The notes under the pieces are model-generated. The model worked only from the letters and a program-made list of their open reading frames with translations. It searched no databases and was not told where the DNA came from. Below are positions 12,517-63,709 of a stretch of DNA of 64,000 nt, in pieces; position 1 is the first letter of the stretch; every line of letters starts with the position of its first letter. The stretch comes from Rhodoferax sp. (GTDB lineage: Bacteria; Pseudomonadota; Gammaproteobacteria; Burkholderiales; Burkholderiaceae_C). The stretch covers positions 1 to 64,000 of the forward strand of contig NZ_JAQURE010000004.1 of NCBI RefSeq assembly GCF_028715765.1, written 5' to 3'. The translations under genes and the position numbers were made by a program.

Positions 12517-15500
12517 ATGCACAACCCCAATCCACCAATCAACCCAGACACCCTGGCCGCCGCCCAGGCCTTCATCGCCCGCTGGGTGGGCAGCAGTGCC
12601 AGCGAACTGGCCACAGCTCAGAGCTTTGTCATCGACCTGTGCGCGTTGCTGGGTGTCGCAAAACCCCATGCCACGCCCGAGCAGGACTACATGTTTGAGC
12701 GCCCCGTCACCTTTGTGCACGGCGACGGCAGCACCAGCCCCGGGCGCATTGATTGCTACCGGCACGGCCACTTTGTGCTGGAGGCCAAAAAGTTCAAGGC
12801 TCCCAGCCACACCAAAGGCTTTGACGATGGCATGTTGCGTGCCCGCTCGCAGGCCGAAGGCTACGCGCGCGCCTTGCCCGCCACCGAAGGTCGCCCGCCC
12901 TTTTTGCTGGTGGTTGATGTGGGCAACGTGATCGAGGTGTACGCCGAATTCAGCCAAAGCGGTGCCACCTACACCCCGTACCCCGACCCGCGCAGCCACC
13001 GTCTGCAACTGGCCGACCTGGCTCGGCCGGAGGTATTGGCGCGCCTGCGCAGCATCTGGACTGCACCGCAAAGCCTGGACCCGGCGCGCATCAGCGCCCA
13101 GGTCACGCGCGACGTGGCGGCCACGCTGGCACGCCTGTCACAGTCGTTGGAGGCAGGCTTTTCTTTACAACAAAATCAGCCTCTAGCGCTTGATGCGTCT
13201 GCGCAAGCAGCACCTGAATTTGTAGCAAATTACCTCACCCGTTGCCTCTTTTCGATGTTTGCCGAAGACGTGGATTTGCTGCCCAAAGGGGCTTTTCAGG
13301 GCTTGCTGCAAACCCACCGCGACGACCCGGCTACGCTGCAGCAGATGCTGCGCATTTTGTGGGCCGACATGGATCGGGGCGGCTTCTGCGCCGCGCTGGC
13401 CAAAAACGTGCTGCACTTCAACGGCAAGTTGTTCAAGGGCGCGCAGCAAGACCACTACAGCTTGCTACTCACACCGGCGCAAATTGACCTGTTGATTGAG
13501 GCTGCCCGTGCCAACTGGCGCGAGGTGGAGCCCGCCATTTTTGGCACACTGCTTGAGCGCGCCCTGAACCCCACCGAGCGCCACGCGCTGGGCGCGCACT
13601 ACACGCCGCGCGCCTATGTGGAGCGGCTGGTGTTGCCCACGGTCATCACACCACTGCGCCAGGAGTGGGCCAACGCCCGCGCTGCAGCGCTGGTGCTGGC
13701 GCGCGAGGCCGCCAGCCTGGAGGGCAAGGCGCAAGAGGCCAAACTGGACGCCGCCCGTGCCGAGGTGCTGCGCTTTCACCACCGGCTGTGCAGCCTGCGC
13801 GTGCTCGACCCGGCCTGCGGTAGTGCCAACTTCTTGTACGTGACGCTGGAGCATTTGAAGCGCCTGGAGGGCGAGGTGGTGAACCAGTTGCAAGAGCTGG
13901 GCACCACGCACGCGCATCAGCAAGCCAGTCTGGGCTTTGAGGGCGAAACGGTCACGCTGGCGCAGTTGCGCGGCATTGAGTTGAACGAGCGCGCCGCTGC
14001 GCTGGCCGAGCTGGTGCTGTGGATTGGCTATCTGCAGTGGCACATTCGCAGCCGTGGCAACGCCGCCGTGGCCGAGCCGGTGGTGCACAACTACGGCAAC
14101 ATCGAGTGCCGCGACGCCGTGCTGGCCTGGAGCGCGCAAGAGCCCGCGTATGACGCGGCCGGCCAGTTGCGCACGCGCTGGGATGGCGTCACCTTTAAAA
14201 CCCACCCGGTCACGGGCGAGCCGGTGCCCGACGAGGTCGCGCAGGTGCCGCTGTGGCGCTACGTGGGGGCGCGCAAAACCGCCTGGCCGCAGGCCGATTT
14301 CATTGTGGGCAACCCGCCGTTTATTGGCAACAAACGCATGCGCGAGGCACTGGGTGACGGCTATGTGGAAGCACTGCGTGAGGTCTGGCACGGCGTGCCT
14401 GACAGTGCCGACTTTGTCATGTACTGGTGGCAGCACGCGGCCTATTTGGTGGGCTGTGGGCAGGTGCAGCGCATGGGGTTGATCACCACCAACAGCCTGA
14501 CGATGATCTTTAACCGGCGTGTGGTGCAGTCGGCGCTGGACGGGACTGCCGGGATGACTGGGTCAGTTGGTGCAATTGAGGCTGGTCGCGCTGCTTTTGC
14601 ATCGGGCAATGGGCACTCGGGCGCTGATGGTGGGTGTGAGTCAGAGGAAACCGGGGTTGCGAACTTTGTCGGTGGGGCCGAGGGGCAGACTGGGGTCGCC
14701 CTCATGCTGCCAAACGCGCAGAAATCGGGCGGCCCCAGTCTGCCCCTCGGCCCTGCCAGTGTTGTACCCTGCCACCTGGAAATGGCGATACCAGATCACC
14801 CCTGGGTGGACAGCGCCAGTGGCGCGGCGGTGCGCATTGCGATGACCGTGCTGGCCGCTGGTGCGGGCGAAGGCGTGTTGCAAACGGTAACGGCTGAACA
14901 GGCCGGGGAGCATGGCGAGATGCGCGTGCAACTGGCCGAGCGTGCCGGGCTGATTCATGCTGATTTGAGCGTGGGGGCGAATTTGGCGGGGGCGAAAACA
15001 TTGCGCGCCATGGATGGCCTGGCCAACCGTGGTGTGATTCCGCATGGCGCGGGCATGACCGTCACGCTTGAGCAAGCCCGCGCTCTGGGTTTGGGCGTGG
15101 TGCCCGGCATCGAAAACCATCTGCGCCCATACCGCAACGGCAAGGATTTGACCGACAAACCGCGCGGCGTACTCGTCATCGACTGCTATGGCCTGAGTTC
15201 CGAACAAGTGCGAGACCGTTTCCCCGCGATCTACCAATGGCTGCTGGAGCGCGTTAAGCCCGAACGCGATCTGAATCCCCGACCAAAGCGTCGTGAACTG
15301 TGGTGGCGCTTTGCTGAGGATCAGCCACGAATGCGTGCGTCGCTCAATGGCCTTACACATTACATCGCCACAGGCCAGGTCTCCAAGCACCGCGTGTTTC
15401 AGTTTCTGGACGCGTCCATCCTGCCCGACGACAAACTTATCGCGGTTGCTCTGGACGACGCTTACTCGCTGGGCATTCTCTCCAGCCAAGTTCACATCGA

Positions 15501-16539
15501 CTGGGCGCTGGCACTAGGTGGCAGGCTTGGCGTGGGCAATGACCCGGTTTACAGCAAGTCCCGCTGCTTCGACACTTTCCCCTTCCCCGACGAAGACACC
15601 GGCCTCACACCCGTCCTGCGCGCGCGCATCGCCCATCTGGCCGAGCAAATAGATGCCCACCGCAAGCGCGTGCTGGGCTTGCCCGTGACTGCGCCTGTGC
15701 CCGCGCCGGGCGGGGTCAACGCACCAAGCGCTGGTGGTAGAGCCCTGGCAACCGCCGCAGTTCAAGAGCAAAATCAGCCTCTAGCGCTTGTCAATCAAGC
15801 GCTGACAGCTATCAATACAAAAGCAAATGGTGGTGTTGCTGACGCGCAGTCAGACGCCATCGGGGTCAAACCGCATCAAGACGTCACGCTGACTGGCCTG
15901 TACAACGTGTTGCAAGCCTTGCGCCAGGGGCGCGCGCTCACGGCCAAAGAAAAAATCATCCACAGCCGCGGCCTGGTGGGCGTGCTGCGCGAACTGCATG
16001 ACGAGCTTGACGCTGCCGTGCGCGCCGCTTACGGTCTGCCCGTTGACGCCAGCACCGCAGACACGCTAGCGCTGTTGCTGCAGCTCAACGCCCGCCGCGC
16101 CGCCGAAGAGGCGCAAGGCCTCGTGCGCTGGCTGCGCCCGGCGTTTCAGCACCCCACCGCGCCACAGCAGGCACCGCTAGAGCTTCAAAATAAAGAGCTG
16201 CCTGCGCATGCGGATCAAGGGCTAGAGGCTAATTTTTCATATAACTCTGATGCATCATCTGGCCTACCACCGGACGCAGCGCCAGACGCACTTTCCGGCA
16301 CCTTGTCCGGCGCAACCAGCCGCCCCAGCACTGCGCAACCCTGGCCGGCCACGCTGCCTGAGCAGGTGCGCGCCGTGGCCGCCGTTTTGACGGCCAGCCC
16401 CGCGCCGCTGTCTTTGTCCGCGCTGGAAGCCCACTTCAAAGGTCGCGGTGCATGGAAGAAAGGTTTGCCCATCATTCTCGACACCCTTGCCGCGTTGGGC
16501 CGGGCGCATTGCCAGGCGGCGCTGTGGCGTGGGGTGTGA
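12517..16539 (+). CDS. MmeI-like type IIL/IIG restriction-modification enzyme
   Basis: A 1340-residue single-chain enzyme expected to combine DNA adenine methylation and cleavage. The N-terminal nuclease motif is RID-x9-EAK (D79, E89, K91 by my count), the same spacing as the D-x9-ExK site of MmeI. The methyltransferase core has motif [14 protein letters not shown] and catalytic motif [12 protein letters not shown]. The C-terminal third should carry target recognition. The product is longer than the usual 900-1150 residues because it has Ala/Gly-rich insertions: residues about 675-770 contain a 21-bp DNA inverted repeat, and three stretches derive from the dispersed palindromic repeat (near 13172, 15770 and 16188). 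No partner genes adjoin it. Activity cannot be assumed given these insertions. Confidence 0.85.
13172..13229. repeat. dispersed palindromic repeat inside the restriction-modification gene (copy 1)
   Basis: Contains AATCAGCCTCTAGCGCTTGA and, 17 bases on, AAGCAGC and TTTGTAGCAAA. It is read in frame as part of the MmeI-like protein, between the nuclease and methyltransferase parts. Confidence 0.7.
14675..14753. repeat. 21-bp perfect inverted repeat inside the restriction-modification gene
   Basis: The arm 14675-14695 (starting GGGCCGAGGGGCAGACTGGG) is exactly complementary to 14733-14753, with a 37-base loop. It lies within an Ala/Gly-rich coding segment that interrupts the methyltransferase domain shortly after motif IV. 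The arms could be the ends of a small inserted element. Confidence 0.8.
15770..15827. repeat. dispersed palindromic repeat inside the restriction-modification gene (copy 2)
   Basis: Contains AATCAGCCTCTAGCGCTTGT then CAAGCGCTGACAGCTATCAA, an almost intact copy read through in frame. Confidence 0.85.
16188..16252. repeat. dispersed palindromic repeat inside the restriction-modification gene (copy 3, opposite orientation)
   Basis: Contains AAGAGCTGCCTGCGCATGCG then AAGGGCTAGAGGCTAATTTT. It encodes GLEANFSY, also encoded by the copy in xdhA. Confidence 0.82.
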
Positions 16540-20958: not shown

Positions 20959-20959
20959 G

Positions 20960-22618
20960 TCAGCGCAGTCCTTGTCGGCGTCGTCCCAGCGCATAGGCCA
21001 TCACGCTGGCCAGCCCAAAAGCGGCCAGCGGCAAAGCAATTTGCAGCAAGGCCTGCACTGCCAGCACCCGGCGGTTGCCGCCTGCGCTCGACGCCACTGC
21101 CTCGGTGGTCACGGTGGCAAATCGGCCACCACCCGCAAACAGCGTGGGCAGGTATTGCGCCACGCTTACGGCAAAACCGACTGCCCACGCGGCCAGCAGG
21201 GGGCGCAACAGCATGGGCCATTTCACCGTCAAGCAGGCGCGCCAGGGCGAGCAGCCTAGGGCGCGTGCGCTGGTCATCAGGCGTGCATCAAAAGCGCGGT
21301 AGGCGCCTATCAGGGTCAGCACCATGTAGGGCAGCACCCACAGCAAATGGCTCCACACCAAGGCCACTGCTGTGCCGTCAAGCTGTGCCTGCAGCAGCAC
21401 CGCATATTGCCCGGCGACCAGCGGCAGGGCGGGCACGATCAGGGGCAGGTACAACATCGCATTGAGCTGCTTGGGACCCCATTCCAGCCACAGCAGCACC
21501 GCGGGCAAACACAGCATGCTAGCCACAGTGGCAAGCCACAAGGTAGTCCAAAACGGGGTCCAGTCGGCTTGCCGCCACGCTTCAAGCGACACGCCATCCG
21601 GCAACAGCGCCGGAAAAAACCACCCTTGCGACACCGACCACAGCAGCAGCACGGCTACCACCGCATAGCCGCTGAAAAACCACAGCGTGTGCAAACTGAA
21701 CCCACGCCAGCGTGATACGGGTATGCGCCGCCCACTGGGGTAGGGTTGCAGCTGCAACCACAACCCAGCCAGACCACGCCCCCCCAAAGCGATGATGAGC
21801 AACCCAGCCAGCAGCACCAACGCAGCAGCACTGCCAAGGGCTTGCAGCGCGGGGTTGGGGTCGGTCAGCCAGTGCCAGGCCAGCACTGCCAAGGTGGGCG
21901 GCGTGTTGGGCCCCAAGATCACCGCCATGTCCACCACCGACAAGCCATAAGCCAGCACGGCCAGCACCGGCCATTGCATGCGTGGCAGCAACTGCGGCCA
22001 CAAAATCTTGACCCAAACCTGGGTGCGGCTGTAGCCCAAAGCGCGCCCCATCACCATCTGGCGGCTCACCGCCTGCTCGCCCAATACGGCTGCCAGCACC
22101 CACAGCAAAAACCAGCTCTCTTTGATGGCCAGCGCCAGCGCCAAACTCAGGCCATAGGGATCTTGCACTGTGACCCAGTCTGGCGGGCTAGACCATTGAA
22201 CAAATTGGGCTGTAGCCCTTGCCAACCAACCGGAAGGTGCTATTAAAAAAAACATGCCTACAGCAAAAGCCGCATGCGGAACCGACAGCAGCAGCGGCAA
22301 GCGGCGCTGTAGCCGCAACCACACCCAGCCGGGGTAGTACAGCGTGGCCATCAAGGCAGCTATGGCGCAGGCCAACGCAGTGCTCAAGACACTGGAAATT
22401 AGCGTGGCGCGCAAAGCCTGCGGCCACTGGGCATCGCGCCACAGGGTCTGCCACACAGCGCCATCCAAAGCGGGCAGCAACGCCCAATACAGGCCAGGCA
22501 GCAGTGGGCCAAAGATCAGCAACATGGGCAGAGCCGCCAGCCACAGCCCCCACCCAAGCCCCCACCCCAACCCTCCCCCAGAGGGGGAGGGAGAGGATAT
22601 TTGGCAGGCGAAAGCCAT
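20960..22618 (-). CDS. ynjC: YnjC-like ABC permease with two fused membrane domains
   Basis: A 552-residue permease with about twelve membrane segments. Two permease modules are joined head to tail, with one coupling loop around EQAVSRQMVMGRALGYSRTQVWVKILWPQLLPRM and the second around AFDARLMTSARALGCSPWRACLTVKWPMLLRPLL. Single-gene fusion of both permease halves is typical of the YnjC and ThiP groups. The start at 22618 lies 25 bases after ynjB's stop. A Pro/Gly-coding stretch close to the start (SPSPSGGGLGWGLGWG) suggests the true start may be slightly downstream. Confidence 0.87.
   Translation of the reverse strand: MAFACQISSPSPSGGGLGWGLGWGLWLAALPMLLIFGPLLPGLYWALLPALDGAVWQTLWRDAQWPQALRATLISSVLSTALACAIAALMATLYYPGWVWLRLQRRLPLLLSVPHAAFAVGMFFLIAPSGWLARATAQFVQWSSPPDWVTVQDPYGLSLALALAIKESWFLLWVLAAVLGEQAVSRQMVMGRALGYSRTQVWVKILWPQLLPRMQWPVLAVLAYGLSVVDMAVILGPNTPPTLAVLAWHWLTDPNPALQALGSAAALVLLAGLLIIALGGRGLAGLWLQLQPYPSGRRIPVSRWRGFSLHTLWFFSGYAVVAVLLLWSVSQGWFFPALLPDGVSLEAWRQADWTPFWTTLWLATVASMLCLPAVLLWLEWGPKQLNAMLYLPLIVPALPLVAGQYAVLLQAQLDGTAVALVWSHLLWVLPYMVLTLIGAYRAFDARLMTSARALGCSPWRACLTVKWPMLLRPLLAAWAVGFAVSVAQYLPTLFAGGGRFATVTTEAVASSAGGNRRVLAVQALLQIALPLAAFGLASVMAYALGRRRQGLR
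22201..22253. repeat. possible diverged repeat copy inside ynjC
   Basis: AAATTGGGCTGTAGCCCTTG then AAGGTGCTATTAAA resembles the repeat ends. The encoded FLIAPSGWLARATAQF could, however, be native permease sequence, so the match may be coincidental. Confidence 0.35.
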
Positions 22619-26742: not shown

Positions 26743-26800
26743 TGAATAAAATAAGCCTCTAGCCCTTTATTTATAAGTGTAAGGAGCTATTAAAATTGAT
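26743..26800. repeat. dispersed palindromic repeat upstream of modE
   Basis: Contains AATAAGCCTCTAGCCCTTTA then ATAAGTGTAAGGAGCTATTA. It supplies an AAGGAG-like sequence in the modE leader, about 35 bases upstream of ATG 26817. Confidence 0.8.
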
Positions 26801-32131: not shown

Positions 32132-32203
32132 ATTTTGTGACGGTTAATCGGCGTTGACGCAGTCGATTTCCCTGTTTTTCGCGGTGTGCGGGCAGATGTT
32201 GCG

Positions 32204-32218
32204 TGGCACAAATCATGC
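32204..32218 (+). promoter_or_regulatory. sigma-54 (-24/-12) promoter
   Basis: TGGCAC-5 bases-ATGC matches the sigma-54 consensus TGGCAC-N5-TTGC, with the invariant GG and GC exactly spaced. It lies 37 bases upstream of ATG 32255 and directly after the gene for a sigma-54 activator. Confidence 0.8.
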
Positions 32219-32254
32219 GTGACCGGCCGTGTGTTCTTTCTACAAAACGAGGTC

Positions 32255-34180
32255 ATGATGAAAATGCAGAGATTCAAAGCCAGCCTGATTGCGCTGGCCG
32301 GTGGGTTGCTGTTAGGGGGCTGTATGCAGCCCGGCGGACAACTCACTGCCAATGCGCCCATCAAAGGCGTGGTTGAAAACGGTACGGCTGAACGCTTCCA
32401 GAAAATTGCGGGAGCCACAGTCTGGTTGATCCCGGCCGCCGATGTGGCGGCAATGGCCAAAACGCCAGTGGTGATCAAAAAGGACTCTGTCAATGACGAA
32501 CCGCTGGAGGACAACCTCAATGCCCATCGCGACCGCTACCTGCACGCCAAGACCAACGCCCGGGGCGAGTTTGATTTTTCCAGCGTGCCCGCAGGCAATT
32601 ATTTTGTGTATGCGGAACCTGGTGATGCCACGCACCTGCCGGGCGGTTCGCTGACGCGCAAGGCTTTGAACACCACGGAGTTGGCTGCCAAACCGGTCAC
32701 CGTCAAGCTGTCGGGCAATACCCCGGCAGGGGCAACCTACGTGGGTACATCGGACTGCATGGAGTGTCATGACGACAAAGAGCACTTCAAGCAAACCATG
32801 CACCGCTTGGGCATCCAGGTGGTGGGCAAGCCCAGCGGCCTGCAAGACTATTCACGATTTCCAGAAGTCAACAAGGGTCTGAACAAGTTAATGGCTGGCA
32901 CCACGTTCTGGTTCCATGGCTATGACGGCAAGCGCAGTTTTGACAAATACCTGATCAGTACCAAGGCTCCGGCCGACCTGGCCAGCGCCAGCTTTACCGC
33001 CACCTTCTTTAAAGACAGCGACGGCAAGCTCAAATTCCGCACCAGCAACCTGCGCAACCCGGCCGATGCGCCACGTGTCTACCCGGTCGATGCGGCGTAT
33101 GGCGGCGGCGTGTACAAGCAACGTTATCTGTACCGCGTGGGTGCGAACCTGTTCCCGTTTGTCCAGTTCAATCAGCTGGGTGACGATAGCTTTGCCGACC
33201 GGGGTCGCAAACAATGGCGCGATTACCACTCTGATTGGCTGTTCAGTGAAAAAACGAACAAGCTGACCGACCCGTCCAAGGAAAAGTCGTTCGAGAAAGA
33301 GTGTGCCTCTTGTCACTACAACGGTTACAGCCTGACCAAGAACGCGGCGGGTGCCTACATCGCCAGCTCGGCCACCGACCCGAATGGTGAGATGGACGTG
33401 GATGGCGACGGCAAGCTCAATGAAATGAACATGGGCTGCGAAACCTGTCACGGCCCAGGATCTGCGCACAAGGCGGCCAAAGGTTTGGCCAAGTTCGCCA
33501 GCATCGTCAGCCCCAACAAGCTAGCAGCAGAGCGTGAAGTGATGATTTGCGTACAGTGCCACAGCCGTCCGCAAGGGTATCTGAAGAACGACCAGCCGGT
33601 GAATGCCGCCAACCAGATGATGCTGCCGGGTACCTCGCGCAACGCTTTCCTGAAAGAGTTCACCCTCCGTGAAGACGCGGCCAAGGGTAGCTACTGGGCT
33701 GACGGCTTGCACTCCAAGGCGCACCATCAGCAAGGCACGGACTTCATCAAGTCCAGTAAGTACCGCAACGGCACCCAACTGGTGGCTTGCTCCAGCTGCC
33801 ACAGCCCGCATGGCGATGCCAAGTTTGCGCACCAGCTGACGCAAGACCCCAAATCGACCGCGTCGTGCACCACCTGCCACACCAACAAGGTGGACTTGAA
33901 GGCGCACCTGGCCGATAAAGCCAAGTGCACGGTCGATGTGAGCAAAGTCACCTGCAACAGCTGCCACGGTACCAAGACCATGCAGAGTGGTGCCGGTATG
34001 GGCAAGGGTCTGGTAGCGGCCGATGGTAAGAACTACTGGATGAACGACATCACCTCGCATATCTACGACGTGCCACGCAAGGACAACAAGGGTGTCAAGG
34101 GTGTGGCAGCCAATGCAGCCATGCCGATCCCGTATACCAATGCCTGTGGTGCGGCTTGCCATGATGTGAAGAAGCTCTAG
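32255..34180 (+). CDS. multiheme c-type cytochrome lipoprotein
   Basis: A 641-residue exported cytochrome. The signal ends in a lipobox (ALAGGLLLGGCMQPGG), so it is lipid-anchored. Residues about 35-165 look like a carboxypeptidase-regulatory-like beta domain (IKGVVENGT, AGATVWLIPA, TNARGEFDFSSVPAGNYFVYAEPG). The rest has seven CXXCH sites (CMECH, CASCH, CETCH, CVQCH, CSSCH, CTTCH, CNSCH) and a C-terminal CGAACH, a possible CX3CH eighth heme. ATG 32255 was chosen because earlier in-frame starts lie upstream of the sigma-54 promoter. The gene probably belongs to that two-component regulon; its electron partners may include the neighbouring Aor complex, but this is inference. Confidence 0.9.
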   Translation: MMKMQRFKASLIALAGGLLLGGCMQPGGQLTANAPIKGVVENGTAERFQKIAGATVWLIPAADVAAMAKTPVVIKKDSVNDEPLEDNLNAHRDRYLHAKTNARGEFDFSSVPAGNYFVYAEPGDATHLPGGSLTRKALNTTELAAKPVTVKLSGNTPAGATYVGTSDCMECHDDKEHFKQTMHRLGIQVVGKPSGLQDYSRFPEVNKGLNKLMAGTTFWFHGYDGKRSFDKYLISTKAPADLASASFTATFFKDSDGKLKFRTSNLRNPADAPRVYPVDAAYGGGVYKQRYLYRVGANLFPFVQFNQLGDDSFADRGRKQWRDYHSDWLFSEKTNKLTDPSKEKSFEKECASCHYNGYSLTKNAAGAYIASSATDPNGEMDVDGDGKLNEMNMGCETCHGPGSAHKAAKGLAKFASIVSPNKLAAEREVMICVQCHSRPQGYLKNDQPVNAANQMMLPGTSRNAFLKEFTLREDAAKGSYWADGLHSKAHHQQGTDFIKSSKYRNGTQLVACSSCHSPHGDAKFAHQLTQDPKSTASCTTCHTNKVDLKAHLADKAKCTVDVSKVTCNSCHGTKTMQSGAGMGKGLVAADGKNYWMNDITSHIYDVPRKDNKGVKGVAANAAMPIPYTNACGAACHDVKKL

Positions 34181-34190: not shown

Positions 34191-34282
34191 GGGGTCAGAG
34201 CACATTTGCTGCGCAAAGTGGTCTGACCCCAAGGTCGTAAGTTAGGTCAGGGCACATTTGCTACGCAAAGTGGTCTGACCCC
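34191..34282. repeat. two tandem GGGGTCAGA palindromic repeat units
   Basis: Unit one (34191-34230) is bounded by GGGGTCAGA and TCTGACCCC. Unit two (34245-34282) has the same interior (CACATTTGCT then CGCAAAGTGG) but begins GGTCAGGG. They lie just after the multiheme gene. A third unit with the same ends but a different interior occurs at 36869-36908. Confidence 0.85.
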
Positions 34283-34291
34283 AAGTTCTCC

Positions 34292-38640: not shown

Positions 38641-38699
38641 TTGTATAAGAAATTGGCATCTAGAGCTTATTCTATAAGCATGAGTAGCTATCAATATGC
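38641..38699. repeat. dispersed palindromic repeat, copy downstream of the MoaD-like gene
   Basis: Contains AATTGGCATCTAGAGCTTAT then ATAAGCATGAGTAGCTATCA, a diverged version of the repeat core found at about a dozen places in this window. It includes the apparent start codon of the next gene. Confidence 0.8.
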
Positions 38700-39002: not shown

Positions 39003-39060
39003 GCCAAATTGGCCTCTAGCGCTTATGGATAAAGCTTAAGCAGCTACAAATGAAATAGCA
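39003..39060. repeat. dispersed palindromic repeat, copy after the unknown aor-cluster gene
   Basis: Contains AAATTGGCCTCTAGCGCTTA then AAGCTTAAGCAGCTACAAAT, close to the family core, 7 bases after the stop at 38995. Confidence 0.85.
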
Positions 39061-45108: not shown

Positions 45109-47106
45109 TCAAAAAGGCTGTTTGCTTTGCCACCAGGTCAACACCTGTTGTACCGATGCTTCAATCGATACGTCAGAGTTGTCTAGCAGCAAGGCATCTT
45201 GCGCGGGCTTTAAGGGTGAAACAGGGCGGGACATGTCCCGGGCGTCTCTGGCCTCTAGGTCTTTGCGAAGACTGTCAAGTGTAGCGGTGTTCCCCTTTGA
45301 AATCAACTGTTTGAAGCGTCTTTGCGCGCGTTGCGCGGCACTGGCGGTCAAAAAAACTTTCAAGGCAGCGTCTGGAAAAATCTCGGTGCCCATGTCCCGC
45401 CCGTCAGCCACCAGCCCCGGCAGACGGCGAAAGCCGTGTTGCAAGGCCACCAAGGCGCTGCGCACTTTGGGCAACACAGACACTTGAGAGGCTTGCATGC
45501 CCGTGCTTTCGAGTCGAATCAAGTCTGTGACATCGGCATCAGCCAGCAGCACACGGTCATCTTTGAACTCAATTTGCAAGCGCTCGGCCAACTCAGCAAT
45601 GGCAAGCTCTGCAGAGGCGTCCAGTGGCAAGCCAGCTTGGGTTGCAGCCAAGGCTGTGATGCGGTAAAGCGCACCAGAGTCGAGCAAGTGGTAACCCAAT
45701 TGGCTCGCCACCTGGGCAGCCAGCGTGCCCTTGCCGGAGGCAGTGGGACCATCGACACAAATCACGGGAATGTCTTCGGGCGCTGTTTGCACCACCGAAA
45801 ACAAGGCTTCAAAATAATCCGGGAATGTTTTTGCGACACACTTGGGGTCCACAATCCGCACCGGCAAGTGCGCCGGGTTGAAGGCTGACAGTGCAAAACA
45901 CATGGCCATGCGGTGGTCGTCATAGGTGTCAATGCTGCCTGTTTGCCAGGCGGCCACGTTGGCAGGTGGGGTGATCTGAATGAAGTCTGCGCCTTCCACC
46001 ACAGTGGCACCGAGTTTGCGCAGTTCGCAGGCCATGGCAGCAATGCGATCTGTTTCTTTGACGCGCCAACTGCCAATGTGACGCAGCGTGGTGGTGCCGT
46101 CGGCATAAAGCGCCATCACGGCCAGTGTCATGGCGGCATCGGGGATGTGGTTGCAGTCGAGGTCAATGGCTTTGAGCGGCCACTGACCTTGCGACACCTC
46201 CAGCCAATGAGGACCACTTAACACCTTCGCGCCCATCGCTTGAGCGGCTTCAATGAAGCGAATATCGCCTTGAATGGAATCTGCGCCCAAGCCCAAAATC
46301 TTGATGCTTTTTTGGCCTCTAGAGCTTGCTGCTATTGCGCCAGAAGCTATGAAATAACTAGCAGAAGATGCGTCTGCCTCGACATGCAAAACGCCGGGCG
46401 ACTGGTAGCTGCAACCGGCCGGCACGGTAAAGCGCTGCCAGCCGTCTCGCGCGATGTGAATGCCAAAGCGCGCCAGCAGGTTCAGGGTGATCTCAATGTA
46501 GGGGCGCGAAATCAACTCGCCCACCACCTCAATCTGAATGGCCTGCTTGGCCACCAGCGGCAACGCCATCAGCAAGGCGGTTAAAAATTGGCTCGACACA
46601 TCGCCGCGCACTTGGATGGGTGCGTTCAGCTTGAGCTGGGGTTGGCCAATGTGCAGCGGCGGGTAGCCTTCTTGGCCGGTGTAGTCAATTTGGCAACCCA
46701 GCTGGCGCAGGGCATCGACCAGGTCACCAATTGGGCGCTCATGCATGCGTGCCACGCCACGGAGTTCAAAATCGCCCCCCATCAGCGCCAACGCGGCGGT
46801 CAGTGGTCGAATGGCCGTGCCTGCATTGCCCATGAACAGCTGGGCCTGTGTGACTTTGGCTTGGCCACCCAAGCCGTCGATCACCACCGTGTGCCCATCT
46901 TGCGCGATGCTGCAACCCAATTGGCGCAGCGCGGTGAGCATGACACGGGTGTCGTCAGAGTCCAGCACATCGTGCAAGGTGGTGCGCCCGTGGCAAAGCG
47001 CTGCCAGCAGCAGCACCCGGTTTGAGATGCTTTTGGAGCCCGGCAGGTGAACCCTCCCCGAGGCTGATTGCAGGGGCGGCAGGTCGATGAATGCGGTGGT
47101 TAGCAT
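45109..47106 (-). CDS. aroA: fused EPSP synthase and cytidylate kinase
   Basis: A 665-residue bifunctional protein. Residues about 1-440 are 3-phosphoshikimate 1-carboxyvinyltransferase ([76 protein letters not shown]). Residues about 445-665 are cytidylate kinase ([57 protein letters not shown]). The fusion is known in several Burkholderiales. A dispersed repeat contributes about fifteen residues ([15 protein letters not shown]) in the AroA half. It overlaps tyrA by 7 bases. Confidence 0.94.
46306..46363. repeat. dispersed palindromic repeat inside aroA-cmk
   Basis: Contains TTTGGCCTCTAGAGCTTGCT and GAAGCTATGAAATAACTAGC. It is translated in frame as about fifteen extra residues of the EPSP synthase half. 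Confidence 0.78.
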
Positions 47107-50202: not shown

Positions 50203-50256
50203 TAACAAATAGGGCTCTAGCGCTTATGGATTAAGCGTAAGTAGCTATCAATTATG
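50203..50256. repeat. dispersed palindromic repeat between gyrA and serC
   Basis: Contains GGGCTCTAGCGCTTATGGAT then TTAAGCGTAAGTAGCTATCA. It runs into the gyrA stop codon and fills nearly all of the intergenic gap. Confidence 0.85.
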
Positions 50257-55073: not shown

Positions 55074-55348
55074 TCAATTGGCCTGATTTTCATGCGTTGG
55101 GCAGTGGGTGGCAGACAGACTGAGAATTTGACCTTGGGCGTTTTCAATCCAGCCGATCAAACGCAGGCGCGCTGGCAGGCTGCGCAGTCGGCGCTGATGA
55201 AGCGCTCGAGCAACGCTGTTGGAGGCGTTTGATCGTCACTGCTGCAAGAGGACTGGCTTTGTGCCGAGTTGCAAAACAGCAGTGCTGCAGCACTGCATGA
55301 CCAGACCAGAAGGGAGCGCAGCTGGGTGATTGGATGAGGCAATTTCAT
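55074..55348 (-). pseudogene. decayed gene for a small secreted protein
   Basis: From ATG 55348 the frame gives a plausible signal peptide (LVWSCSAAALLFCNSAQS) and then PPTALLERFISADCAACQR before stopping early at 55157-55159. Protein-like sequence resumes one base out of frame (RLRLIGWIENAQGQILSLSATHC) and stops at 55074. This pattern suggests a frameshifted remnant of a secreted, thioredoxin-like-start protein. The rest of the 490-base gap between guaC and the helicase gene shows nothing else. Confidence 0.45.
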
Positions 55349-55369
55349 GGTGCTTTCTACAATGAACAC

Positions 55370-57778
55370 ATGTTTAACGCAATTACACAACAAAGCCCGG
55401 ATGCCAGCTTGCTCCATCACCTGAACCCGGAGCAGATGGCGGCCGTAACGCTGCCTTCAGTGCACGCCTTGATTCTGGCGGGTGCTGGTTCTGGTAAAAC
55501 CCGGGTGCTCACGACCCGCATTGCCTGGCTGCTGCAAACCGGTCAAGTCTCCCCCGGTGGCATCATGGCGGTGACCTTCACCAACAAGGCAGCCAAAGAG
55601 ATGATGACGCGGCTCAGTGCCATGCTGCCGCTGAATGTGCGCGGGATGTGGATTGGCACGTTTCATGGCCTGTGCAACCGGCTGCTGCGCGCCCACTACA
55701 AGTTGGCCAACCTGCCGCAAACCTTCCAGATTCTCGACACCCAAGACCAGCTCTCCAGCATCAAGCGCTTGTACAAGCAGTTTGGGGTGGACGACGAGCG
55801 TTACCCCGCCAAACAAACGCAGTGGTTCATTGGCGGCTGCAAAGAAGACGGCATGCGCCCCAAGGATGTGGTAGCACGCGACGAAGAAACCCGTAAAAAA
55901 ACAGAGCTGTACCAGCTGTATGAAGAGCAGTGCCAGCGCGAAGGCGTGGTGGACTTTGGCGAGCTGATGCTGCGCAGTTACGAGCTGCTGCGCGACAACG
56001 ATGCCATTCGTGAACACTACCAGCGCCGCTTTCGGCATATTTTGATTGACGAGTTCCAGGACACCAACAAGCTGCAATACCTGTGGATCAAGATGTTGGC
56101 TGGAACAGGTGCCAACAGCAGTCTAGAAAGCGCTTTTACGCCTACTGGCTGCGTCATGGCAGTGGGTGACGATGACCAAAGCATCTACGCTTTTCGCGGC
56201 GCACGCGTGGGCAACATGGCTGACTTTGTGCGTGAATTTGGCGTCCAGCATCAGATCAAGCTGGAAGAAAACTACCGCAGTGGCAGCAACATCCTTGACA
56301 GCGCCAACGCCCTCATCGACCACAACAGCAAGCGCCTGGGTAAAAACCTGCGCACCGCACAGGGCCCGGGCGAGCCCGTGCGCGTGTATGAAGCCCCCAG
56401 CGACTTTGCCGAAGCTACTTGGATGGTGGATGAAATGAAGCAGTTGGTGCGCGACGACATCGTGCGCAGCGAGATTGCCGTGCTCTACCGCAGCAACGCG
56501 CAAAGCCGGGTGATTGAAACGGCACTTTTTAACGCTGGCATGCCCTATAAAGTCTACGGTGGCTTGCGCTTTTTTGAGCGCGCTGAAATCAAAAATGCAC
56601 TGGCCTACCTGCGCCTGCTGGAGAACCCGCGTGACGACACCAGCTTCATGCGTGCGGTGAACTTTCCCCCGCGTGGCATCGGCCCGCGCAGTTTGGAGCA
56701 GTTGCAAGACCTGGCGCGTGCCAGCGGCTGTGCCTTGAGCGACGCAGTCAGCGCCCTCAGTGGCAAGGCTGGCACCAATATTGGCGCATTTTTGGCAGGC
56801 ATCGACGTGCTGCGCGAGCAAACCCAAGGCTTGAGCCTGCGCGAGACCATTGAGCGCACGCTGGCGCACAGCGGCTTGGTTGAACACTACCGTGCTGACC
56901 GAGAAGGTGCTGACCGGGTCGAAAACTTGCAAGAGTTGGTCAATGCCGCTGAGAGCTTTGTCAGCATTGAAGGCTTTGGGCGCGATGCAGTGGGCTTGCC
57001 AGTGGATGAATTGGGTAACGCACTGTCTCAATCCCCCGCGTCCCAAGGGCTAGACCCGAACCTGTCGCTGCAAGACCTTCCTGCGCCCGATGCCGACACC
57101 GGCGAAACCTTGTCGCCACTGGCGGCTTTTTTGACCCATGCCGCTTTGGAAGCGGGCGACAACCAGGCGCAAGCCGGCCAAGATGCCATCCAGCTCATGA
57201 CCGTGCACGCCAGCAAGGGGTTGGAATTTGACTGCGTGTTCATCACTGGCATGGAAGAAGGGCTTTTCCCGCACGAAAACTCAATGACGGACCGCGACAG
57301 CCTGGAGGAAGAACGCCGCCTGATGTATGTGGCCATCACCCGCGCGCGCAAACGCCTCTACCTGAGCCACGCGCAAACACGCATGCTGCACGGCCAGACC
57401 CGCTACAACCTGAAAAGCCGGTTTTTTGAAGAACTACCCGATGCCGCATTGAAGTGGATCACCCCAAAGAATCAAGGTTTTGGTCACGCAGGCAGTGCTT
57501 CAAATACTATGAAATACGGAGCTACTAGCGCTTATTCATCAAGCGCTAGAGGCCATTTTGGCACTGATTTTTCAAAATTCACCACAGCGCCTGTGCCGAC
57601 TCAAAAAACGCCGCCCACGGGCTTGCAGGTGAAGCAAAAAGTGTTTCACAACAAGTTTGGCGAAGGCACGGTGTTGAGCCTGGAAGGTGCGGGGGATGAT
57701 GCCCGGGCTCAAATCAATTTTCCACGCCATGGCGTCAAGTGGCTGGCTTTGAGCGTGGCCAAACTCACGCCGTTGTGA
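55370..57778 (+). CDS. uvrD: UvrD/Rep-type superfamily 1 DNA helicase
   Basis: An 802-residue ATP-dependent 3'-5' helicase for repair and replication restart. Motifs seen are Walker A LAGAGSGKTRVL, motif Ia VTFTNKAAKEM, DEFQDTN (Walker B), GDDDQSIYAFRGA, LEENYRS, VMTVHASKGLEFDCVFI (LMTVHASKGLEF) and VAITRARKRLYLS. The C-terminal beta domain (VFHNKFGEGTVLSLEG) is typical of UvrD/PcrA. Two stretches match the dispersed repeat: NSSLESAFTPTG before GDDDQS, and MKYGATSAYSSSARGHFG in the C-terminal linker. ATG 55370 is the family start; an in-frame ATG lies 36 bases upstream. Confidence 0.92.
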   Translation: MFNAITQQSPDASLLHHLNPEQMAAVTLPSVHALILAGAGSGKTRVLTTRIAWLLQTGQVSPGGIMAVTFTNKAAKEMMTRLSAMLPLNVRGMWIGTFHGLCNRLLRAHYKLANLPQTFQILDTQDQLSSIKRLYKQFGVDDERYPAKQTQWFIGGCKEDGMRPKDVVARDEETRKKTELYQLYEEQCQREGVVDFGELMLRSYELLRDNDAIREHYQRRFRHILIDEFQDTNKLQYLWIKMLAGTGANSSLESAFTPTGCVMAVGDDDQSIYAFRGARVGNMADFVREFGVQHQIKLEENYRSGSNILDSANALIDHNSKRLGKNLRTAQGPGEPVRVYEAPSDFAEATWMVDEMKQLVRDDIVRSEIAVLYRSNAQSRVIETALFNAGMPYKVYGGLRFFERAEIKNALAYLRLLENPRDDTSFMRAVNFPPRGIGPRSLEQLQDLARASGCALSDAVSALSGKAGTNIGAFLAGIDVLREQTQGLSLRETIERTLAHSGLVEHYRADREGADRVENLQELVNAAESFVSIEGFGRDAVGLPVDELGNALSQSPASQGLDPNLSLQDLPAPDADTGETLSPLAAFLTHAALEAGDNQAQAGQDAIQLMTVHASKGLEFDCVFITGMEEGLFPHENSMTDRDSLEEERRLMYVAITRARKRLYLSHAQTRMLHGQTRYNLKSRFFEELPDAALKWITPKNQGFGHAGSASNTMKYGATSAYSSSARGHFGTDFSKFTTAPVPTQKTPPTGLQVKQKVFHNKFGEGTVLSLEGAGDDARAQINFPRHGVKWLALSVAKLTPL
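56109..56150. repeat. possible diverged repeat copy inside the helicase gene (copy 1)
   Basis: AACAGCAGTCTAGAAAGCGC then TTTTACGCC shares TCTAGA/AGCGCTT elements with the family and encodes an apparent insertion before motif GDDDQS. Confidence 0.45.
57501..57563. repeat. dispersed palindromic repeat inside the helicase gene (copy 2)
   Basis: The cleanest copy: CTAGCGCTT-7 bases-AAGCGCTAG is a perfect 9-bp stem, followed by AGGCCATTTTGGCA. It is translated in frame in the linker before the C-terminal domain. Confidence 0.92.
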
Positions 57779-59864: not shown

Positions 59865-59936
59865 TGGAAAGTGACTGGAAAGTGACGGATTGGATGGGTT
59901 GAATTTGCTGCTGCGCTGAGCCCATTTGGCGGCATT

Positions 59937-62246
59937 TTATTTTTTAAGTGCCCATAACACCCGCTCTGACGTGGCGGGTGCATTCAATGACACCGGTTTA
60001 CCATCCCCACGCGCCTGCGCCACCGCATCACGCAAGGCCTCAAACACACTGATCGCCAGCATGAAAGGTGGCTCACCCACGGCTTTGGAGCCAAACACGT
60101 TGTCCTCGGTGTTGGGCTCTGGCCATAAATCAATCTTGAAATGCGCGGGCACATCACCCGAAGTAGGTATTTTGTAGGTGCTGGGGGCGTGGGTTGACGG
60201 CACACCCTGGGCGTTCCAGACCAGTTCTTCGGTGGTCAGCCAGCCCATGCCTTGGATAAATCCTCCCTCAATTTGCCCGATGTCAATGGCCGGGTTGATC
60301 GAGCGGCCCACGTCGTGCAGGATGTCAACCTTCAGCACCCGGCTTTCGCCGGTGAGGGTGTCAATGGCCACTTCGGTGCAGGCTGCACCATAGGCAAAGT
60401 AGTAAAACGGGCGCCCGGTGAGGGTGGTCTTGTCGTAATGGATTTTGGGTGTGCGGTAAAAGCCGTCGCTCCAGAGTTGGATGCGGTTAGCGTAGGCCAG
60501 CGCCACCACGGCTTCAAAGCTGCGCGTGGTTTTTGGGGTGATGACCTGTCCGCCTGCAAACTGCACCGCACCAGCGCCCACGCCGTCAAGGCCAGACACA
60601 AACGCGGCCAGGTTGTCCCGCACATGGCGTGCCGCAAACTGGGCGGCGCGGCCATTCAAGTCGGTGCCCGCTGAGGCGGCGGTGGCTGAGGCGTTGGGGA
60701 TTTTGCCGGTGTCGCTGGCACTGGGCAACACCCGGTGCAAGGGCACGCCCAACTCATCGGCCACGATTTGTGCCACTTTGGTGTGCAGGCCTTGCCCCAT
60801 CTCGGTGCCGCCGTGGTTCACCATGATGCTGCCGTCCAGGTACACATGCACCAAAGCCCCGGCCTGGTTGAACAGCGTGGCGGTGAAGCTGATGCCAAAT
60901 TTGACTGGTGTGATGGCGATGCCGCGTTTCACTACCGGGTTTTCAGAGTTCCAAGTCAAAATGGCCTCTCGCCTTTTCTGGTAATGCGCAGACAGCTCCA
61001 ATTTTGAGAGCAATGGGGCGAGGATGTTACCTTCTACCTGCATGCCATAGTGGGTGGTGTTGCGCTTGGAGTTGGCATTGGCATCCACCGGCTCCTCGCT
61101 GTACACGTTGCGCCGCCGCACCGCCAAGGGGTCGAGCCCGAGGTAGCGGGCAATGTCACCCAGAATGGCCTCGGTGACGATCATGCCCTGCGGCCCGCCA
61201 AAGCCGCGAAACGCGGTGTGGCTCTGGGTGTTGAGCTTGCAGCGGTACGAGGTGATGTCCACGTCTTGCAGAAAGTAGGCGTTGTCGGCGTGAAAAATCG
61301 CGCGGTCGGCCACCGGGCCGGACAAATCGGCGCTGAAGCCGCAGGCCACCAGCATGTCCAGACGCAGGCCGCACAGCCTGCCGGTGTCATCAAAACCCGC
61401 CGTGTAGTCATAGGTGAAGGGGTGGCGCTTGCCGGTGATCATGAAGTCATCGTCGCGGTCCAGCCGCAGTTTCACGGGTTTTTTGAGCTTGTGCGCGGCC
61501 ACAGCGGCCCACACGGCCAGATGCCCCGCCTGGGTTTCCTTGCCGCCAAAACCACCGCCCATGCGTCGGCATTCGACCCGCACCGCGTGGTTGTCCAGCC
61601 CCAAGGCATGCGCCACCCAGTGTTGCACCTCGCCGGGGTGCTGGGTGCTGCTGTGGATGAGCCACTGGTTCTGTTCTTGCGGCAGGGCGTAGGCGATCTG
61701 GCCTTCCAGGTAAAAGTGCTCCTGGCCACCGACCTCCAGCGTGCCTTGCAAGCGGTGCGGCGCACGCGCCAATGCCTGGGCGGCATCACCCCGGCGCACC
61801 GTCACCGGCGGCAGCACAAAACTCTGCGCTGCCAGGGCCTGGCGCACGTCCAGCACGGCGGGCAAGGGTTCAATTTGCGCCGTCACATGGCTGGCGGCAT
61901 GCAGCGCTTGCGCCATGCTGTCAGCCACCACTACGCCCAAAGCCTGGCCGACATACTGCACCGTGTCGATGGCAAACACCGGTTCGTCCCCGGCAAACGC
62001 GGCCAGCATCTTGTGGCCAGGCACGTCGGCGGCCAGCAGCACCGCCCGCACGCCGTGCCGGGCCAGAGTGGCCTGGGTGTCGATGCAGATCAATTTGCCG
62101 TGCGCCACCTTGGACAAGATGGGGGCGGCGTAGAGTGTGCCGCGCACCTCGGGCAGGTCGTCAATGTAGAGGGCCGCTCCGGCAATTTGGGCGGCGGCAC
62201 TTTCGTGCGGGTGGGACTGGCCCGCTGCGGTCGTGGTCGATGTCAT
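59937..62246 (-). CDS. xdhB: xanthine dehydrogenase molybdenum-binding subunit
   Basis: A 769-residue catalytic subunit hydroxylating hypoxanthine and xanthine. Seen are VGQALGVVVADS, GGQEHFYLEGQIAYALP (Gln/Glu of the active site), RRMGGGFGGKETQ, KLRLDRDDDFMITGKRHPF, LNTQSHTAFRGFGGPQGM, GGTEMGQGLHTKV, ASAGTDLNG and near the end KAVGEPPFMLAISVFEALRDAV, with the catalytic Glu in VGEPP. Length matches XdhB of the two-subunit bacterial type. It overlaps xdhA by 4 bases. Confidence 0.95.
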   Translation of the reverse strand: MTSTTTAAGQSHPHESAAAQIAGAALYIDDLPEVRGTLYAAPILSKVAHGKLICIDTQATLARHGVRAVLLAADVPGHKMLAAFAGDEPVFAIDTVQYVGQALGVVVADSMAQALHAASHVTAQIEPLPAVLDVRQALAAQSFVLPPVTVRRGDAAQALARAPHRLQGTLEVGGQEHFYLEGQIAYALPQEQNQWLIHSSTQHPGEVQHWVAHALGLDNHAVRVECRRMGGGFGGKETQAGHLAVWAAVAAHKLKKPVKLRLDRDDDFMITGKRHPFTYDYTAGFDDTGRLCGLRLDMLVACGFSADLSGPVADRAIFHADNAYFLQDVDITSYRCKLNTQSHTAFRGFGGPQGMIVTEAILGDIARYLGLDPLAVRRRNVYSEEPVDANANSKRNTTHYGMQVEGNILAPLLSKLELSAHYQKRREAILTWNSENPVVKRGIAITPVKFGISFTATLFNQAGALVHVYLDGSIMVNHGGTEMGQGLHTKVAQIVADELGVPLHRVLPSASDTGKIPNASATAASAGTDLNGRAAQFAARHVRDNLAAFVSGLDGVGAGAVQFAGGQVITPKTTRSFEAVVALAYANRIQLWSDGFYRTPKIHYDKTTLTGRPFYYFAYGAACTEVAIDTLTGESRVLKVDILHDVGRSINPAIDIGQIEGGFIQGMGWLTTEELVWNAQGVPSTHAPSTYKIPTSGDVPAHFKIDLWPEPNTEDNVFGSKAVGEPPFMLAISVFEALRDAVAQARGDGKPVSLNAPATSERVLWALKK

Positions 62247-63709
62247 GGGGCATCTCCTTCCAGGCTCAGGTTCAGCAGGCTGGCTGATGTGGGGTCTTGA
62301 ATCTCCTGCCAGAAGCGTTCCAGCAGATTGCCCAGCACCTGGGTGCGGTAAGCGGCGCTGGCCCGCATGTCAGAAATCGGCTGGAATTCACCGCGCAGGG
62401 TGGAGATGGCCTGGCTCAAGCTGGCATGCGCCCAGGGCTGGCCTTGTAACGCCGTCTCGGTTTGCCGGGCGCGTGCCGGGGTGGCCGCCACGCCGCCTGC
62501 GCCGATGCTGGCGTGCGCAATGTGGCCGTTCTGAATCTGCAAGTTGATCACCAGGCAGACGGCTGAAATGTCGTCCTCCATGCGCTTGGAGATTTTGTAA
62601 GCCCGCAGCTGTTCGCCAGCTTGCGGGCGGGGCACATGCACATAGGCCAGCACCTCATCGGCAGCCAGCAGGTTTTTGCGGTAACCGGTGTAGAAATCTT
62701 CCAGCGGCAGTTCTCTGCTGCCATGCACACTCATCAGCACCACGCTGGCACGCAAGGCAATCAGCAGCGGCATGCTGTCGCCAATCGGGGAGCCGTTGGC
62801 AATGTTGCCGACCAGCGTGCCAGAGTTGCGCACCGGCAGCCCGGCAAAGCGGCTGAAGAAGCTGTGCAACTGGGGCCGCTCGGCCTCCAGCGCTGCAAAG
62901 GCATCGGTCAAGCGCACCGCTGCGCCAATCACGGTGTGGCTGGTGGTGGCCTCGATCTGCCGCAGCTCTGCCACGCGGGTCACATCCAGCACCTGGGCAA
63001 AGTCCATGTGCAACTTGTTGACCCACAGGCCCACATCGGTACAGCCGGCCACGATCTGGGCTTGCGGGTGAGCGGCACGCTGGCTCAGCAAGTTTTCTAG
63101 TGTGAGTGGATTTTTATATGAAAAATTGGCCTCTAGACCAGGTGAATCATGCGCAAGAAGCTCTAATTGTTGTAGCAATTGAACTTCATTCAATGACTGC
63201 TTGGGCAAGTGCTGCATCTGTTGAGCGGCATCCAGAATGGGCCGGTAACCGGTGCAGCGGCACAGGTTGCCCGACAGCGCTTCTTGCGCCACGCTGCGGG
63301 TCACCGGCTGGTCATTCAGCACCTGGTTCTGGTACAGGCCAAACAAGCTCATGGCAAAACCTGGGGTGCAAAAGCCACACTGGCTGGCATGGCACTGGTG
63401 CAAGGCTTGTTGCACCGGGTGGGGTGTCTGGTCTGGCGAGCTCAGATCCGCCGCCGTCCACAAGGCCATGCCGTGAATCGAATGCGCCAGGCGGATGCAA
63501 CTGTTGACTGCCAGATAGCGTATCTGGCCGCCCTGGTTTTCAGCCAGCACCACGGTGCAGGCCCCGCAGTCGCCCTCGTTGCAGCCCTCTTTGGTGGCGC
63601 TGTGGCCCAGGTCTTCGCGCAGCAACTGCAGCAGGGTGCGGGTGGGTGGTACATTGCGCAGCGAGACGATCTCGCCACGCCAGACAAACGTAAGTTCAGG
63701 GTGATTCAT
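62243..63709 (-). CDS. xdhA: xanthine dehydrogenase iron-sulfur/FAD subunit
   Basis: A 488-residue electron-transfer subunit. Two [2Fe-2S] sites are visible: CNEGDCGACTVVL with a later NSCIRLAH, and CGFCTPGF with CRCTGYRPILDAA. The FAD domain (about residues 200-485) has QIVAGCTDVGLWVNKLHM and NSGTLVGNIANGSPIGDSMPLLIAL. The linker between them contains a stretch derived from a dispersed repeat ([12 protein letters not shown]). It is divergent from a LysR-type gene 93 bases away that may regulate it. Confidence 0.94.
   Translation of the reverse strand: MNHPELTFVWRGEIVSLRNVPPTRTLLQLLREDLGHSATKEGCNEGDCGACTVVLAENQGGQIRYLAVNSCIRLAHSIHGMALWTAADLSSPDQTPHPVQQALHQCHASQCGFCTPGFAMSLFGLYQNQVLNDQPVTRSVAQEALSGNLCRCTGYRPILDAAQQMQHLPKQSLNEVQLLQQLELLAHDSPGLEANFSYKNPLTLENLLSQRAAHPQAQIVAGCTDVGLWVNKLHMDFAQVLDVTRVAELRQIEATTSHTVIGAAVRLTDAFAALEAERPQLHSFFSRFAGLPVRNSGTLVGNIANGSPIGDSMPLLIALRASVVLMSVHGSRELPLEDFYTGYRKNLLAADEVLAYVHVPRPQAGEQLRAYKISKRMEDDISAVCLVINLQIQNGHIAHASIGAGGVAATPARARQTETALQGQPWAHASLSQAISTLRGEFQPISDMRASAAYRTQVLGNLLERFWQEIQDPTSASLLNLSLEGDAP
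63113..63180. repeat. dispersed palindromic repeat inside xdhA
   Basis: Contains GAAAAATTGGCCTCTAGACC then AAGAAGCTCTAATTGTTGTA. It is translated in frame in the linker between the iron-sulfur and FAD domains. Confidence 0.82.

Follow-up and report, generated by a model that had tools for sequence, protein, structure and literature searches.

The DNA uptake sequences (DUS) of Neisseriaceae and the uptake signal sequences (USS) of Pasteurellaceae are short signals with a core of 9–12 bp. Uptake sequences of Neisseria occupy permissive positions of the core genome and are themselves conserved there (PMC2397512), and DUS occur in thousands per genome, in dialects that run through the whole family and are congruent with its phylogeny (PMC3630211). 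The known substrates of REP-associated tyrosine transposases (RAYTs) are repetitive extragenic palindromic sequences (REPs) in single-stranded, folded form, bearing the tag GTAG, and some RAYTs tolerate changes of that tag (PMC8266576). REP families retain alternative complementary residues in their stems, and in some of them GYAG is a degenerate form of the tag (PMC3733652). Rickettsia palindromic elements (RPEs) are described as insertions fused to the product of their host gene (review PMC10969869). Here we analyze a palindrome-like motif of ~60 bp that recurs across a 64,000-nucleotide stretch of a 3.41-Mb Rhodoferax sp. genome (NZ_JAQURE010000004.1, our contig C4:1–64000; hereafter the window). 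The motif is enriched throughout the genome; its copies inside genes bring no gain in length, are maintained on average, mostly follow the dialect of their lineage, and are mostly missing where a genome is motif-poor. We tentatively propose that these copies are kept by a molecular drive of the uptake-sequence type.

A first-pass annotation, made from the letters of the window, had noted about a dozen copies of this repeat over 50 kb. Using a profile seeded with eight copies from the window and refined iteratively on 849 kb of the same genome (24.9% of it), and hence trained on the dialect of this genome, we found 13 sites scoring ≥10 bits in the window and a further, weaker one at 3013 (7.7 bits). 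Four of the 13 are intergenic (26749, 38650, 39006, and 50207) and match the intergenic copies that the annotation had placed at 26743, 38641, 39003, and 50203. The other nine lie inside open reading frames (ORFs), including those of aroA-cmk, the helicase, xdhA, and the restriction enzyme, where in-frame copies had been claimed and where Pfam recognizes the host domains. The sites and their main host genes are:

7003–7051, minus strand: weak motif copy (12.1 bits), in frame in an MbnB/TglH/ChrH-like gene (6399–7349, minus strand; Pfam PF05114)
12517–16536, plus strand: host gene for an MmeI-like restriction-modification protein, with four MmeI Pfam domains and three motif copies
13173–13221, plus strand: motif copy in the MmeI-like ORF (33.2 bits)
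15771–15819, plus strand: motif copy in the MmeI-like ORF (42.3 bits)
16187–16235, minus strand: motif copy in the C-terminal part of the MmeI-like ORF, on the opposite strand (38.4 bits)
22202–22250, plus strand: motif copy (16.3 bits) in ORF 20963–22618 (minus strand), which has no Pfam family
26749–26797, plus strand: intergenic copy (33.6 bits) between a solute-binding protein gene and the gene of a ModE-like regulator (HTH_1 + TOBE)
38650–38698, plus strand: intergenic copy (33.4 bits; the orthologous copy in the relative G010 scores 50.2 bits)
39006–39054, plus strand: intergenic copy (43.3 bits)
45112–47106, minus strand: host gene for an AroA-Cmk fusion (Pfam EPSP_synthase + Cytidylate_kin)
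46309–46357, plus strand: motif copy in aroA-cmk, whose ORF is on the minus strand (30.1 bits)
50207–50255, plus strand: intergenic copy between a gyrA-type gene and a class-V aminotransferase gene (48.3 bits, the window maximum)
55334–57775, plus strand: host gene for a UvrD helicase (Pfam)
57511–57559, minus strand: motif copy in uvrD (ORF on the plus strand), in the linker ahead of the tudor domain (44.5 bits)
59940–62246, minus strand: host gene for the molybdopterin subunit of xanthine dehydrogenase (Pfam MoCoBD_1 and MoCoBD_2)
60958–61006, plus strand: motif copy in the molybdopterin subunit gene, whose ORF is on the minus strand (23.9 bits)
62246–63718, minus strand: host gene xdhA, the Fe-S/FAD subunit (Pfam Fer2, Fer2_2, FAD_binding_5, CO_deh_flav_C)
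63123–63171, plus strand: motif copy in xdhA (ORF on the minus strand), in the linker between the [2Fe-2S] and FAD domains (37.6 bits)

The repeat is real, and its family is larger than first reported. Allowing up to two mismatches, the 14-mer of its left arm, GGCCTCTAGCGCTT, has 327 matches in the genome and the reversed pattern has four, so the enrichment elsewhere in the genome on which the annotation had let its claim depend is present. The profile at ≥10 bits gave 157 raw matches in the 849 kb, or 146 distinct sites, one per ~5.8 kb; it gave no match in the same 849 kb reversed and none in 366 kb of the relative G030, which rules out that the low-scoring coding matches are false positives. 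From the collected copies we built a consensus by eye, ttTTATatgcAAATnGGCCTCTAGCGCTTATgaAataAAGCGtaAGCAGCTATtaAtTTtATAGC, which is palindrome-like and consists of two inverted half-sites, GCNNCTAGCGCTT-N7-AAGCGYNAGNAGC, with AT-rich flanks. With genes called by our own codon-usage heuristic, 55 of the 146 sites are coding-like by one heuristic and 65 lie in a gene by another. Genome-wide, the two strands are balanced (164/163 in this genome and 166/159 in G010), spacing is near random (coefficients of variation of 0.85 and 1.00), and across the contigs of this genome the orientation of the motif has no consistent polarity relative to local GC skew, single stretches being uneven. Spacers between divergent genes are depleted in the motif (4 motifs in 79 in this genome, 7 in 42 in G010, and 3 in 65 in Acidovorax-type loci), and spacers between convergent genes are enriched (19 in 55, 14 in 36, and 45 in 87).

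Going by titled genome records among the matches listed, strong copies also occur in Acidovorax, Comamonas, Simplicispira, Giesbergeria, Ottowia, Polaromonas, Rhodoferax, Extensimonas, and other genera, whose family we take to be the Comamonadaceae. Within the genus, density ranges from chance level up to ~95 excess matches per Mb. A BLAST search with a 70-base consensus, which is insensitive to typical copies, returned one match in 72,556 plasmid records and none in 50,697 phage records, the Comamonadaceae share of these records not having been checked; such near absence from plasmids and phages fits a core-chromosome signal. Among the matches listed we found no published description of the motif. 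Thirteen papers containing one of five short strings of sequence appear from their titles to be unrelated, and passages of the Rhodoferax ferrireducens genome paper, for the terms used, yield only CRISPR repeats (PMC2755013).

The annotation had read the repeat as a non-autonomous mobile element that adds peptide segments to its host proteins. Insertion predicts a difference of about −48 to −70 bases (16–23 residues) at an empty site. To measure it, we aligned orthologues from this genome, G010, G030, G032, and Acidovorax-type loci between two-sided anchors able to bridge a 60-base gap. At 15 coding sites, 18 pairs with the motif present in one member and absent from the other differed by −24, −8, 0 (12 pairs), +4, +6, +12, and +18 bases, and none of the 18 came near −48 to −70 bases; these pairs and those used for maintenance below are not mutually independent. 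Because motif-free orthologues have about equal length, the in-gene copies replace host codons, and insertion inside genes is contradicted. What stands of the mobile-repeat claim is a genome-wide, palindrome-like family lying in frame in many unrelated genes; the addition of peptide segments fails.

Comparison at the protein level, within the genus and with distant solved homologues, also turned up no insert-sized difference between hosts and their repeat-free counterparts, the comparison by which the annotation had proposed to check its claim. The XdhA linker has no gap among 30 aligned genus orthologues, whether or not they carry the motif. Seven host proteins differ from solved homologues by 0, 0, 2, 4, 5, 6, and 13 residues, in either direction, and a clean insert of 16–23 residues was seen in none of the seven. 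The solved XdhA, presumably that of Rhodobacter capsulatus, has a linker two residues shorter; the solved AroA, which we take to be from E. coli, is five residues shorter around the motif; and YggS (also presumably from E. coli) and a solved guanine deaminase are the same length as the motif-bearing hosts. MnmE is about four residues shorter at the motif and RarA about six longer. The solved isoleucyl-tRNA synthetase is 13 residues shorter, yet the motif-free genus member G032 is as long there as the host. At the aroA place, where 14 of 30 genus loci have a match (E up to 1, our own locus counted), length changes are inconsistent: two motif-bearing rows have six residues more and one motif-free row has two fewer.

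The location of coding copies in linkers or loops, as noted in the annotation, held for UvrD, XdhA, and MmeI, but weaker copies overlap well-aligned stretches of guanine deaminase and isoleucyl-tRNA synthetase. The latter gene (L025 14617–17766) has two copies, one of 11.2 bits in the catalytic part and one of 31.9 bits in the C-terminal cysteine-rich region. In the MmeI-like gene, the copy at 16187 lies within ORF 12511–16536 despite a non-coding call by the coding-flank score, and it is in frame in the alignment with a paralogue encoded at contig C2:34240–37843 (L022) of the same genome. The motif positions in these two MmeI-like proteins correspond to one another (window 13173, 15771, and 16187; C2 34542, 37160, and 37599), and the first of these pairs aligns without a gap.

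Alignable copies are mostly old. We could align 11 distinct sites of this genome to a 400-kb portion of G010. Ten of them have a counterpart match there at the threshold applied, the DNA being about 80% identical, and the eleventh has a score of 13.5 bits in G010; one weak G010 site, at 206405 (10.6 bits), has no counterpart in our genome. The motif is slightly less identical between orthologues than its flanks (0.775 versus 0.811 in 16 coding pairs and 0.810 versus 0.887 in 16 non-coding pairs). We compared its score with that expected from a neutral simulation, using only gapless pairs with a query score ≥20. The mean score of the orthologous copy was 48.1 versus 21.7 in the simulation for the 16 coding pairs and 57.6 versus 38.8 for the 16 non-coding pairs, with p<0.05 for single pairs in 10 of the 16 and 8 of the 16, respectively. 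On average, motif strength is kept above neutral decay while the bases change.

The motif also takes different forms in different lineages: CTAGCGCTT (the G dialect), CTAGCCCTT (the C dialect), and a third form, CTAGCCCCCGT, seen by eye in G032, G067, G070, and G079. We counted exact matches of CCTSTAGCGCTT and CCTSTAGCCCTT in 60 genus genomes. The ratio of the former to the latter is 104:36, 75:30, 94:44, 28:6, and 23:12 in the G-leaning genomes G000, G010, G023, G002, and G022, and 3:184, 0:137, 1:114, 1:105, 3:125, and 10:145 in the C-dialect genomes G024, G078, G004, G005, G031, and G069; a further label, C*, was given by eye. At the uvrD, xdhA, aroA, and RAYT loci, 57 of the 59 copies from C-dialect genomes have C, and 17 of the 24 from G-leaning genomes have G (uvrD 7/9, aroA 4/4, RAYT 3/3, and xdhA 3/8), a count in which neighboring copies in the same loci are included and G026 (one copy) is left out on threshold. 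In-gene copies mostly follow the dialect of their lineage.

A protein tree of 33 genomes, from which the motif columns had been excluded, requires at least five changes of dialect among the 20 genomes that were labeled. For example, G002 and G022 (both G) group with G069 (C), and the letters in uvrD match each dialect. The dialect change in uvrD alters the protein, as AGC GCT on the coding strand becomes AGG GCT in G078. Several C-dialect copies, in loci of G024, G078, and G004, have GGG in the right half opposite CCC in the left half, a change that is symmetric between lineages but not general.

Copies inside genes are mostly missing where the genome as a whole is motif-poor. We called genomes motif-rich at ≥15 and motif-poor at <5 excess matches per Mb, counted any host-ORF match with E up to 1, and set aside genomes of intermediate density (8 of 30 for aroA, 10 of 30 for uvrD, and 10 of 30 for xdhA). 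The uvrD ORF has a match in all 15 motif-rich genomes and in none of the five motif-poor ones, xdhA in 15 of 16 and 0 of 4, and aroA in 11 of 13 and 1 of 9. Over 30 genomes each, with kinship not removed, the corresponding Spearman correlation is 0.80 for uvrD, 0.78 for xdhA, and 0.68 for aroA. In tree-based pairs on supported branches, a mean of 1.4–1.9 agree and 0.0–0.1 disagree, with no difference in the others; the 3–4 usable pairs are too few for significance.

To learn what kind of site the motif is, we examined pairing and folding. Stem pairs in the copies of this genome and of G010 are near chance, three of them reaching about z +2, and a second stem is paired at chance in 371 copies. 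Pooled copies have other column couplings, such as 18–27 (70% paired versus 65% expected), which may come from the mixing of species. A single-stranded hairpin was rejected, the consensus folding no better than its shuffles (z −0.36 and −0.29). Among natural copies, two do fold better than shuffles (a RAYT-adjacent one at z −2.23 and that at 50207 at z −2.54); two coding copies that we folded, at z −1.30 and +0.77, do not. Near-chance stem pairs together with the lack of extra folding of the consensus point to, rather than prove, a double-stranded site with two inverted half-sites.

We favor, as a tentative reading that we judge somewhat more apt to be wrong than right, a chromosome-wide, double-stranded recognition motif kept by a molecular drive of the kind acting on DNA uptake sequences. 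Inside genes, the motif would arise and persist in place by substitution and not by insertion. A genome-wide process would hold the copies near a lineage-specific consensus, the dialect shifting jointly with codons included, and in lineages that lose the process the copies would decay together. The likeliest such process would be preferential uptake or recombination of motif-bearing DNA, through which alleles with a better motif could spread at all sites where they are compatible with the function of proteins and promoters, and it would involve a dedicated motif-recognizing protein, which the dialects should make findable by coevolution. We rank this reading first because uptake sequences share with the motif its occurrence on both strands and in coding as well as intergenic DNA, its permissive positions, its conservation, and its dialects; to our knowledge they are the one known class that combines all of these. 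The likeness, which takes in genome-wide spread and maintenance in place, is to both DUS and USS (PMC2397512, PMC3630211, PMC2346458, PMC1939737). Unlike their short core, the motif is ~60 bp long and diffuse; it belongs to another bacterial family, and its role in uptake is a prediction. We suggest by analogy that it works like an uptake-type signal, but as it is much longer than known uptake sequences and is not tracked by the presence of the competence protein family ComEC, we do not class it as DUS or USS.

A number of observations weigh against an uptake-type drive. The motif holds 64.5 bits in coding and 69.0 bits in non-coding copies over 89 columns, far above the content of a 10–12-mer, and it is sparser than DUS with their thousands per genome (PMC3630211). 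Strands are locally uneven (54:36 in 400 kb of G010 and 17:8 in our contig C4). ComEC (PF03772) occurs in 56 of 60 genus genomes, motif-free G030 among them, and as it is found in motif-rich and motif-poor genomes alike, its presence does not discriminate as an explanation of the motif. Some genomes have mixed dialects (G013, 18:18, and G035, 8:7, the latter labeled G), and xdhA copies in G-leaning genomes carry C in five of eight cases. Length differences at non-coding sites are broad, from −139 to +416 bases in 28 pairs, and six of these pairs, at between −50 and −77 bases, are compatible in length with insertion. It is possible that some intergenic copies were inserted; the 11 intergenic comparisons inspected contain no clean insertion junction and are too diverged to decide. 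We also know of no uptake experiment on the motif. Finally, motif copies are found at the stop codon of the RAYT gene in excess of expectation, which suggests that another system is involved.

That other system would be of the RAYT/REP kind. The annotation had proposed to look for a REP-associated transposase, and the genome has exactly one Y1_Tnp gene (PF01797), whose product is of REP-associated type (NCBIfam REP_Tyr_transpos, 79.3 bits, just below the cut-off of 80). The gene ends in a motif copy (L168 2161–2210), which provides its stop codon (AAATAA). Several relatives seem to share this among the RAYT 3′ ends at L191–L232, and in G032 and G070 the ORF reads into the motif. Inspection of 70 loci showed a same-orientation copy at the RAYT 3′ end in 12 genomes of the genus, and in motif-bearing genomes of other genera a copy lies ≤30 bp from the RAYT stop at 7 of 30 loci, against a background of 1.9–2.5% of genes with a copy at that place. 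Six RAYT loci have the motif on both sides, compared with 1 of 1825 genes in general. Of the 60 genus genomes, 53 have Y1_Tnp matches, with IS200-type matches counted, and so does each of the 20 relatives whose motif density is ≥15 excess matches per Mb; the seven genus genomes that have none, some of them incomplete, all have <10 excess matches per Mb. Our own RAYT protein was matched, in some cases weakly, in 29 of the 29 motif-bearing genomes searched (30 had been asked for).

Because copies at RAYT 3′ ends and on both flanks exceed the gene background, we keep as the main rival a system in which the single-copy RAYT-type transposase recognizes the motif and copies or converts it, the copies in genes being overwritten by conversion; we regard it as unlikely, though a serious contender. 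The motif resembles REPs in being palindrome-like, in its several hundred copies, and in its preference for 3′ ends (PMC3733652), and some RAYTs accept changes of GTAG (PMC8266576). Here, however, the tag is not fixed (GCAG 188, GTAG 72, and GAAG 26 of 371 copies), and within-genome stem pairs are near chance, unlike those of REP families (PMC3733652). In-gene copies moreover leave gene length unchanged and follow dialects in place, RAYT-type genes also occur in motif-free genomes (G030, G012, and G015, for example), at 23 of the 30 loci in other genera no copy lies ≤30 bp from the RAYT stop, and the two-flank copies may stem from a few ancestral events. A broader idea, which we consider doubtful, is a Comamonadaceae 'sequence-writing' system, in which a trans-acting factor, possibly the RAYT, would overwrite partly matching DNA in place, core-gene codons included, with the ~60-bp consensus of the lineage. 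A chromosome-organizing or topology protein that binds the motif as double-stranded DNA is improbable as well. Site-by-site natural selection would then maintain the copies, and the dialects would reflect coevolution with the protein, which suits the near-chance stem pairs, the maintenance above neutral decay, the dialects, the joint absence, and (by an insensitive search) the near absence from plasmids and phages; it sits badly with near-random spacing, the lack of consistent GC-skew polarity in our contigs, and several genus members without the motif, such as G030, and we found no candidate protein. Copies at the same places across the genus might instead be old in-frame insertions that predate the radiation of the family and have decayed in place since. 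We think this very unlikely: distant motif-free homologues are not 16–23 residues shorter, which contradicts it for the genes tested, scores are on average above neutral decay, and dialects change in place. Least probable, with only a slight chance of being right, is the first-pass reading of a non-autonomous mobile repeat, of the type of RPEs or miniature inverted-repeat transposable elements (MITEs), inserted in frame. Like RPEs it is palindrome-like and in frame in many unrelated genes, and like MITEs it is short, non-coding, and multi-copy, and the six intergenic pairs of insertion-like length also speak for it. Its host proteins, unlike those with RPE insertions (PMC10969869), are not longer, which contradicts the in-gene version; plasmids and phages nearly lack it on the insensitive search; and, in contrast to MITEs, it left no lengthened gene and no clean empty site, terminal repeats, target duplications, and a parent insertion sequence not having been searched for systematically.

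Should the motif prove to be an uptake-type signal, a third independent family of such self-DNA signals would be known, from a large bacterial family that is well sequenced and whose sister species allow their dialects to be compared. A link to RAYTs would mean that REP-like sequences can evolve through replacement and not insertion, and sequence-writing, if real, would mean that hundreds of dispersed sites change dialect together and proteins are rewritten at unchanged length. Either way, hundreds of sites, many of them in core genes such as uvrD and aroA, would be shaped by a DNA-level force that alters amino acids.

Other features of the window came to light alongside the motif. An Rfam search of the window gave no match at gathering thresholds. 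ORF 6399–7349, which holds the weak copy at 7003, is by Pfam PF05114 a gene for a modification enzyme of the MbnB/TglH/ChrH type acting on ribosomally synthesized and post-translationally modified peptides (RiPPs). The MmeI-like ORF contains, at 14675–14753, a 36-nt inverted repeat that is 86% complementary with a 7-nt loop and is unrelated to the motif. Downstream of ORF 32186–34180, at 34193–34288, lie two near-identical 44-nt direct repeats (GGTCAG...GGTCTGACCCCAAG) at a spacing of 52 nt.

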